Source of the DNA: Acidimicrobiia bacterium
GTDB taxonomy: Bacteria; Actinomycetota; Acidimicrobiia; IMCC26256; JAMXLJ01
Reading direction: 5' to 3'
DNA: 64,000 nucleotides
Assembly: GCA_035651955.1 (NCBI GenBank)
Contig: DASRES010000065.1
Coordinates: 1 to 64,000, forward strand
Of this stretch, positions 29,631 to 44,862 are shown one piece after another. The stretch's first letter is position 1. The number at the start of each line of letters is the position of its first letter. The notes under the pieces are model-generated. The model had not been told where the DNA came from, made no database searches, and worked only from the letters and a program-made list of their open reading frames with translations. Made by a program: the position numbers and the translations under genes.

Positions 29631-31073
29631 TCAGTTGGCGACCGTCACGCCCCGGGCGATGTCCCAACCGGTCCAGTACGGCGCGTTGCCCGGCGGGGCC
29701 GGAACCGCGGTGCCCGAGCCGACGTCGAAGCCGTGCAGACCACCCCATCCGTCGAGCACGAAGCCGCCCGAGCCGTCGGTGATCACGGCCGCGCCCCGGG
29801 TGATCGCCCAGTTGGGCCAGTACGGGCCGAGCACGGACGGTGCCGGTGCCGCGTGGCCATTGATCCCGAACGGGTGCAGGCCACCCCAGGCGTCGAGCAC
29901 GTATCCGCCGGTGCCGTCGGGCAGGATCGCCACGCCCCGGGCGACGTCCCAGCCGGTCCACGACGGGCCGCCCGTCGCGAAGGGCAGGGCGTTCCCGCCG
30001 GTCGCGAACGGGTGCAGGCCGCCCCAGCCGTCGACGACGAACCCACCGGTGCCGTCGGGCAGCATGGCGACGCCGCGCGCGATGTCCCACCCGGTCCAGT
30101 ACCCGGTCGTGTGGAACGTCGGCACCGTGCCACCGTTCACCCGGAAGCCGTGCAGGCCGCCCCACCCGTCGAGGACCGCGCCCCAGCCGTTCGCGGTGCT
30201 CGCGGTGACACCGCGTGCGATGTCCCAGCCGACCCAGTACGGGCCACCCGTCGCCGTCGGCGCGGTCGTGCCCTCGGAGAAGGCGTGGAGACCGCCCCAT
30301 CCGTCGACGACCCAGCCGGCCGCGCTCACGGCGCGCGACGGCGGCGGGGGCGGCGGGGGAGGTGTCGTGGGCGTGATCCACGGCGACCAGTCGACGCCGA
30401 GGTCGGGTGCGTAGTCACTCGCGTACGCGCCGCTGGTGCCGTACGGGTCGAGGTCCACCATCATGAACGCGTCGACCTTGATCGGGCCCGTCCCGCCGAG
30501 GCACGCGGCGGGGAAGCTGATCGTGTAGCCGCCCGACGCCGAGAAGCTCCCGTGCACCTGGCCCGGACACAGCTGGGTGTTGAGGTCGGACGTCATGAGG
30601 TCGGCGCCGTAGGCCGTGAGGAACGCGTCGAAGTCGTCGACGCCGTCACCAGTCACGTCGATGCCCCACTCCGTCCCGGTGACCCCCGCCCACGTCGACG
30701 GGTCGGTCATCGCGAGCGTCTTCAACGACAGCGTGATCGTGTTCGTGTTGTAGTAGACGGCCCACGGACCGATGTCCGCCCGCGGGTCGCTGTCGGGCCA
30801 TGTGTCACCGTACGGGTCGGCGGCCTGGTACGACCCGACCGCGTCCGCATGTAGCCGTGTGGACGTCGCGCCGACCGACCCACCTTCACCGCCGCGCGCG
30901 TCCGCCATGTGCTGCGCGAGCTCGTGCACCCGCGCCGTCTGCGATGCCACGTCCGGCGGGGGCGGCGCGTCCGCGGCATGCGCGGACGCGGCCCCCGGGA
31001 GCGCGGCGACCATCACGGCCGTGAGCGACGCCGCCGCCACGGCCGACGAGATCCGCCGGACCTTCCGCGCCAC
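29631..31073 (-). CDS. Secreted protein with five WGGLH/YW-GWDIARG repeats (form 1)
   Basis: 480 residues from the GTG at 31073 (AAGGG upstream). A signal peptide (SAVAAASLTAVMVAALPGAA-SA) is followed by a ~210-residue domain I do not recognise, with aspartate-rich GIDVTGDGVDDFDAF and two Cys. A polyproline linker (PTTPPPPPPPP) leads to five C-terminal repeats of 45-47 residues: (V/L)(V/L)D(G/A)WGGLH(P/G/A)F...YW.GWDIARGV. Regular five-fold repeats of this length are compatible with a five-bladed beta-propeller as in tachylectin-2; that is inference. A paralogue with the same five repeats lies at 43894-44862. Likely exported and possibly carbohydrate-binding. Confidence 0.8.
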   Translation of the reverse strand: MARKVRRISSAVAAASLTAVMVAALPGAASAHAADAPPPPDVASQTARVHELAQHMADARGGEGGSVGATSTRLHADAVGSYQAADPYGDTWPDSDPRADIGPWAVYYNTNTITLSLKTLAMTDPSTWAGVTGTEWGIDVTGDGVDDFDAFLTAYGADLMTSDLNTQLCPGQVHGSFSASGGYTISFPAACLGGTGPIKVDAFMMVDLDPYGTSGAYASDYAPDLGVDWSPWITPTTPPPPPPPPSRAVSAAGWVVDGWGGLHAFSEGTTAPTATGGPYWVGWDIARGVTASTANGWGAVLDGWGGLHGFRVNGGTVPTFHTTGYWTGWDIARGVAMLPDGTGGFVVDGWGGLHPFATGGNALPFATGGPSWTGWDVARGVAILPDGTGGYVLDAWGGLHPFGINGHAAPAPSVLGPYWPNWAITRGAAVITDGSGGFVLDGWGGLHGFDVGSGTAVPAPPGNAPYWTGWDIARGVTVAN

Positions 31074-43893: not shown

Positions 43894-44862
43894 GTGACAA
43901 GGGGGCAGCGGCGGGTCCGATCCGTCCCACGCCGGCGCGCCGGCCGGCTCTCGGCGGCGGTGGTCGTCGGCGCCGCGCTCGCGCTCGTGGCGACGACGGT
44001 GCCGGCGGCGGCCGCGGGTGGCGGGGGGTCCGTCCACGCGACCGCGTCGACGTATCCCGACTCCGAGGGGATCGTCCTCGACGCGTGGGGCGGGCTGCAC
44101 GTCTTCACGTACGGGAGCACGCCCGCGAAGATCACGAGCTTCGGCGGCGCGCCGTACTGGCCGGGTTGGGACATCGCCCGCGGCGTCGCGCTCCGCAACA
44201 CGAACCTGACGACGTGCACCGCGTTCGGCGGCTACACGCTCGACGCGTGGGGCGGCCTGCACCCGTTCGGGATCGACGGCGCGGGCGCGCCCGCGAAGCC
44301 GACCGACGGACCCTACTGGAAGGGCTGGGACATCGCGCGTGACGTCGTGCTCGTCCCGCAGTTCCCGGCCCAGGCGGACAGCGCGCCCGCGGGTGGGCTG
44401 GTGCTGGACGGGTTCGGCGGGCTGCACTACTTCACGATCGTCCCGGGCGTGCCTGCTCCGGTGATCACGGGCGGGCCGTACTGGAACGGGTGGGACATCG
44501 CCCGCGGCGTGATGCTCGTGACCGACAGCACCGGCTGGCGCGGCGGCTACGTCGTGGACGCGTGGGGCGGCCTCCACCCGTTCGGCGTCAACGGGACCAC
44601 GCCGCCGGCCGTGGACCCGAGCACGGTGTCGTACTGGCCCGGCTGGCAGATCGTCCGCAGCGGAACGGTGTTCCGCAACGCGGCCGGCGTCACGAACAAC
44701 CTCCCGAACGGCGGCTTCACGCTCGACGCGTGGGGCGGGCTGCACGGCTTCGCGTTCACCGGCCAGACGCCGCCGGTGACGAGTGGGTTGCACAACGCGC
44801 CGTACTGGTCGGGTTGGAACATCGCCCGCGGCCTCGTGATGCGCAACATCCGCACCTGCTAG
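43894..44862 (+). CDS. Secreted protein with five WGGLH/YW-GWDIARG repeats (form 2, iron box)
   Basis: A 322-residue protein: signal peptide (RLSAAVVVGAALALVATTVP-AAAA, about residues 18-42), then directly five repeats of 48-60 residues with the pattern (V/T)LDAWGGLH(P/V/G)F ... PYWPGWDIARGV. It has no N-terminal extra domain or proline linker, so it is essentially a bare repeat domain. Two Cys pairs may form disulfides (NLTTCTAF and the final RTC). Five repeats suggest a closed propeller. GTG at 43894 has AGGGGG about 6 bp upstream. A secreted, iron-starvation-induced binding protein is the working idea; the function is unknown. Confidence 0.82.
   Translation: MTRGQRRVRSVPRRRAGRLSAAVVVGAALALVATTVPAAAAGGGGSVHATASTYPDSEGIVLDAWGGLHVFTYGSTPAKITSFGGAPYWPGWDIARGVALRNTNLTTCTAFGGYTLDAWGGLHPFGIDGAGAPAKPTDGPYWKGWDIARDVVLVPQFPAQADSAPAGGLVLDGFGGLHYFTIVPGVPAPVITGGPYWNGWDIARGVMLVTDSTGWRGGYVVDAWGGLHPFGVNGTTPPAVDPSTVSYWPGWQIVRSGTVFRNAAGVTNNLPNGGFTLDAWGGLHGFAFTGQTPPVTSGLHNAPYWSGWNIARGLVMRNIRTC

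Follow-up and report, generated by a model that had tools for sequence, protein, structure and literature searches.

Two genes in a stretch of 64,000 nucleotides from an Acidimicrobiia bacterium (GCA_035651955.1, contig DASRES010000065.1, positions 1 to 64,000; here termed the window) encode proteins, P1 and P2, that carry repeats of a WGGLH motif. The domain formed by these repeats is a well-supported beta-propeller by structure modelling, and none of the libraries or papers searched has a name for its family. Taken together, the data incline us to regard P1 and P2 as carriers of an uncatalogued, secreted beta-propeller module, exchangeable and lectin-like, that would retain the attached cargo at some surface or matrix. 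Each WGGLH repeat would form one blade. The chain would close by pairing of strands from both ends, P1 and P2 beginning with strand B and ending with strand A.

The features of both proteins are listed in Table 1. A first-pass annotation of the window had described exactly five WGGLH/YWxGWDIAR repeats in each protein, and both open reading frames were found with this number. The tachylectin-like spacing of 47 residues that it had pointed out for one form applies to P1 (45, 46, 46 and 47 residues) and not to P2 (54, 55, 50 and 56 residues). Both N-termini are signal-like in sequence and hydrophobicity, as had been described. They have a basic n-region, a hydrophobic core (Kyte-Doolittle 2.2 and 2.5 over 15 residues) and AxA-type ends, and on these features both proteins look secreted. 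The extra N-terminal domain and proline linker of P1 and the bare domain of P2 were likewise present; the N-terminal domain of P1 comprises about 200 residues, and P2 has only a short stub ahead of its repeats. A profile built from the P1 repeats detected P2 with 242.6 bits (best of 1000 shuffles, 12.7), and the P2 profile detected P1 with 219.7 bits (best of 1000 shuffles, 6.2). Relatives of the P1 N-terminal domain occur in 2 of 20 related genomes (also counted as 3 of 21 genomes). A relative of P2 with about 62% identity is carried by locus L035 and is likewise a bare secreted domain. P2 contains two cysteines, one after repeat 1 (at about 44218 of the window) and one at the C-terminal end (44857-44859). 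These possibly form a disulfide that locks the ring; the L035 relative keeps only the first of them. Inspected by eye, the open reading frames flanking P1 and P2 are apparently unrelated metabolic genes and give no instructive operon context.

Table 1. Features of P1 and P2 in window coordinates
Feature	Position	Strand	Remark
P1, putatively secreted; N-terminal domain, proline linker and predicted five-blade WGGLH domain	29631-31073	-	GTG start
P1 putative signal peptide	30975-31073	-	Sequence, hydrophobicity
P1 N-terminal domain	30369-30974	-	No Pfam match
P1 proline-rich linker	30339-30368	-	Sequence
P1 repeat 1	30195-30314	-	
P1 repeat 2	30045-30176	-	
P1 repeat 3	29907-30041	-	
P1 repeat 4	29766-29903	-	
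P1 repeat 5	29637-29762	-	
P2, putatively secreted; stand-alone predicted five-blade WGGLH domain	43894-44862	+	GTG start; AlphaFold2 model
P2 putative signal peptide	43894-44016	+	Sequence, hydrophobicity
P2 repeat 1	44074-44199	+	
P2 repeat 2	44233-44358	+	
P2 repeat 3	44401-44535	+	
P2 repeat 4	44548-44688	+	
P2 repeat 5	44716-44841	+	

The consensus of 573 repeats from 110 proteins reads [YW][VT][LV]-D-[GA]-[WFY]-G-G-[LVI]-H-[PA]-F-G ... P ... P-Y-W-P-G-W-D-I-A-R-G-[VI]-[AV]-[LV], with D conserved in 98%, G in 100%, H in 93%, W in 88% and R in 86% of the repeats. In most repeats a GW pair (79%, 77%) lies directly ahead of strand A. Counted from search matches, the same genome (4.1 Mb, 92 contigs) holds about 18 proteins with the WGGLH repeat, i.e. 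about 16 besides P1 and P2. When 84,980 species genomes were scanned, 143 stretches encoding relatives emerged, from which 77 distinct loci were kept; their labels are mainly Acidimicrobiia or other Actinomycetota and Dormibacterota/Chloroflexi. One carrier is Acidimicrobiia bacterium EGI L10123 (L086), whose record does not bear a MAG label. The distribution of the family is patchy. Matches were found in 12 genomes among 41 relatives, in 12 of the 148 genomes of the class, in 1 of 347 genomes phylum-wide (the window's own) and in 7 of 101 genomes from the phylum of a Dormibacterota genome. An origin from phages or plasmids was rejected, since no member turned up in phages, plasmids or IMG/VR and PHROGs gave no significant match. 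On one Acidimicrobiia contig, many WGGLH genes are clustered within about 30 kb (L083, L111 and G048:C52 44000-73000). A record labelled Bifidobacterium breve (MAG TH-08apr19-172; L040, L098) is identical in match place and score to G022, a relative from the window's own order, and its label is probably wrong.

The fixed count of five claimed at first pass holds for P1 and P2 and does not extend to the family, in which the profile search gave five or six blades per array and doubled arrays in some proteins. Blades were counted with a profile using a lenient cut-off for end blades. Among single arrays, those from Actinomycetota-labelled genomes had five blades in 41 cases and six in 11; those from Dormibacterota/Chloroflexi-labelled genomes had six in 28 and five in 3. 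Two arrays counted as four seem, on reading, to contain five blades, with one divergent or split. The five- and six-repeat classes aligned with an hhalign E of 6e-85 and by this comparison are one family. Engineered tachylectin and NHL repeats retained the parental blade number (PMC6805158). Several WGGLH proteins hold two arrays. Two chains of the Dormibacterota type (L048 4455-7322 and L102 4272-6539) have two propeller arrays followed by a region that, by eye, resembles a C39-like peptidase; Pfam found C39_2 in four family members of a second set.

The order of the strands at the two ends of an array bears on ring closure. In P1, P2 and most arrays strand B comes first and strand A last. 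Other arrays, such as L022 and L034 from the same genome, begin with the YWxGWDIARG half and end with the DGWGGLHPF half. Start and end phase were coupled in 95 arrays, with 87 (72 + 15) concordant and 8 not (Fisher p 1e-10, a nominal value because the sequences are related by descent). All eight exceptions turned concordant once the ends were read. In open arrays the two phases would be expected to be independent; the coupling thus appears as a sequence-level mark of velcro closure as defined for propellers (PMC6805158, PMC3797127).

Structure prediction is in line with the phase test. AlphaFold2 modelled the P2 domain (16 aligned sequences) with a pLDDT of 89.9 and a pTM of 0.89, and the predicted strands recur from repeat to repeat. 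The six-repeat domain of locus L049 reached a pLDDT of 91.2 and a pTM of 0.90. In a Foldseek comparison of the P2 model with the PDB, the top matches included propellers (megalin, WD40, 6-phosphogluconolactonase), with a best E of 0.024 and none at or below 0.001. With the L049 model 16 matches passed E 0.001. Its best 50 PDB matches listed were almost all propellers, most with a probability of 1.00, and the best TM of 0.56 was to the six-bladed YWTD propellers of LRP4/LRP6. Beta-propellers have 4-12 sequential blades of antiparallel strands; the WGGLH domains have five or six repeats, predicted strands in each repeat and, for L049, propeller matches. The closed ring proposed earlier for P1 and P2 is therefore backed by a confident P2 model, the L049 matches and the phase test, and the model scores together with the coupled phases point to closure of the models.

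Tandem repeats of secreted proteins often build stalks, and on this general ground the WGGLH repeats might form an open solenoid or stalk. We regard this as highly improbable. Closure was integral in all inspected arrays, whichever strand they started with, arrays had 5 or 6 repeats only, and the confident models are globular with matches to propellers.

We compared the propeller with known families. P1 and P2 had no Pfam match up to E 1 and no meaningful one in NCBIfam, and PDB sequence searches gave matches at noise level only, the designed Pizza propellers appearing at E 0.4 and above. Domain-only Pfam scans of 32 relatives gave scattered, mostly weak matches, the strongest to DUF2507 (4 of 32, best E 8e-7). 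None of ten members rescanned individually gave a Pfam match, a set that may not contain the four with DUF2507. A literature search on motif strings returned no paper with the WGGLH-family motif, and Foldseek gave no significant match to viral models. The suggestion of a possible new propeller family thus stands, with no convincing match in Pfam, NCBIfam, the PDB or the literature.

A kinship to tachylectin-2 was not borne out by sequence. Up to E 1, PF14517 matched neither P1 nor P2, and it matched nothing elsewhere in the genome, and hhalign against tachylectin-2 (sequence checked against 1TL2) gave a probability of 0.1% for the whole domain and a p of 0.011 per blade. Membership in the tachylectins was rejected, as Pfam and both the whole-domain and the blade-level comparison were non-significant. 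Tachylectin-2 and its bacterial relatives (PF14517; 1TL2) resemble the WGGLH propellers in having five blades of about 47 residues, in a GW in the DA' loop before strand A and in being secreted, but they lack the WGGLH motif, and the WGGLH family also has six-blade members. The GW in loop DA' helps to form the sugar pocket of tachylectin-2 and PVL (PMC8023676), and by analogy glycan binding by the WGGLH module is plausible. Nothing observed pointed to siderophore binding. The VCBS actinolectins (Pereira and Lupas 2021, PMC8023676), whose function is not known, are likewise propellers secreted by actinobacteria and stand alone or after a TIM barrel. In contrast to these, as they are described, WGGLH propellers also occur in Dormibacterota and have many more partner types. 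The six-bladed YWTD propellers (LRP6, LDL receptor) gave the best TM to the six-repeat model (0.53-0.56), but they are eukaryotic receptors with about 10% identity, and there is no sign of a specific kinship.

Most members carry the module C-terminally, behind secreted enzymes of various kinds. More than 150 residues precede the repeats in 82 of 97 complete open reading frames, and 72 of the 97 end no more than 15 residues past the last repeat. A signal-like hydrophobic stretch lies within the first 130 residues in 76 of 97, compared with 8 shuffled sequences, and none of the 97 has an LPxTG near its C-terminal end. Pfam partners, counted in 104, were GH18 (10), subtilases (8), CAP (6), amidase_2 (5), metallophosphatase (4), C39 (4) and YkuD (3), as well as FG-GAP. 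Oxidases and GH99 were also found, with singletons including M23, CHAP, GH5, GH43 and trypsin. The module would thus be an accessory domain used throughout the secretome, in most members forming the C-terminal end of an exported enzyme or adhesin-like protein, with P2 as its bare form.

The frequency of GH18, together with GH43, GH5 and GH99, would fit a conventional carbohydrate-binding module that binds an external polymer such as chitin and takes the enzyme to its food, and the GW in the DA' loop recalls sugar-binding propellers. The same module is also found on subtilases, phosphatases, CAP proteins and peptidoglycan amidases, and alone. With cargos so mixed and a bare module, no single external substrate fits all, and we consider such substrate targeting rather unlikely. 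We favour a function in location over one in substrate choice, because the cargos share secretion and not a substrate. From this we infer a multivalent, lectin-like binding face of the propeller that would keep the cargo on a surface or matrix; with cargos that have no common substrate, this surface would probably belong to the producing cell itself, as its envelope or its exopolysaccharide.

A second uncatalogued repeat, GYWLVASDGG, was found in sister Acidimicrobiia. It has 42 residues, gives as many as about 125 matches in a single genome and commonly forms six detected blades; it had no convincing Pfam match and no paper with its motif was found. Like the WGGLH family it is secreted, and its partners include subtilase, amidase, CAP, glucosaminidase and the N-terminal domain of P1; unlike it, the signature contains neither WGGLH nor YWxGWDIAR. 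Fusions to SpoIID, CAP, amidase, subtilase and glucosaminidase are seen at L169-L176, L178 and L181-L220. Blade profiles of the two families aligned in phase (hhalign 4e-5 as p/E, probability about 70%), which is modest support. Among 41 related genomes, 2 contained both repeats, 10 only WGGLH and 16 only GYWLV (p 0.04 with genomes as the unit and 0.22 with genera). A strict mutual exclusion was therefore rejected; there is a tendency only, non-significant by genus. For 29 of 119 WGGLH proteins the partner was homologous, with up to 51% identity, to a partner in about 60 sampled GYWLV proteins. In L178 (1138-2331), a homologue of the P1 N-terminal domain (about 30% identity) is followed by a proline linker and then by GYWLV repeats. 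It seems from this that one propeller type stands in for the other, by replacement or by divergence from a shared ancestor. Part of this signal is expected by chance, because most of the partners in common belong to widespread families of secreted proteins.

These observations also bear on the idea that the propeller is a structural or stabilizing cap without specific ligand, its repeats kept purely for folding. The most conserved positions, D, G, H and R, recur in every blade like the structural networks of other propellers, and by analogy to YWTD or WD40 repeats these residues may be structural. On the other side, a bare secreted domain exists in P2 and its L035 relative, and on related partners a different propeller type seemingly takes the place of the module. 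Both suggest a selected function beyond folding, and a mere cap appears improbable to us. We hold to a retaining module as the preferred reading.

Because Pfam, NCBIfam and the PDB gave no convincing match, the annotation of proteins with WGGLH repeats, among them many secreted enzymes from bacterial lineages that are poorly cultured, omits their most repeated domain. With five- and six-blade members and several closure registers, the family is a natural test case for change of blade number. More speculatively, WGGLH and GYWLVASDGG might be interchangeable versions of one C-terminal retention tag in the secretome of Acidimicrobiia and Dormibacterota, by which tens of unrelated exoenzymes per genome would be held on one self-made surface ligand; the ring would have switched between five and six blades from one lineage to another. 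If true, this retention tag would be functionally comparable to the sorting and anchoring tags of other phyla.
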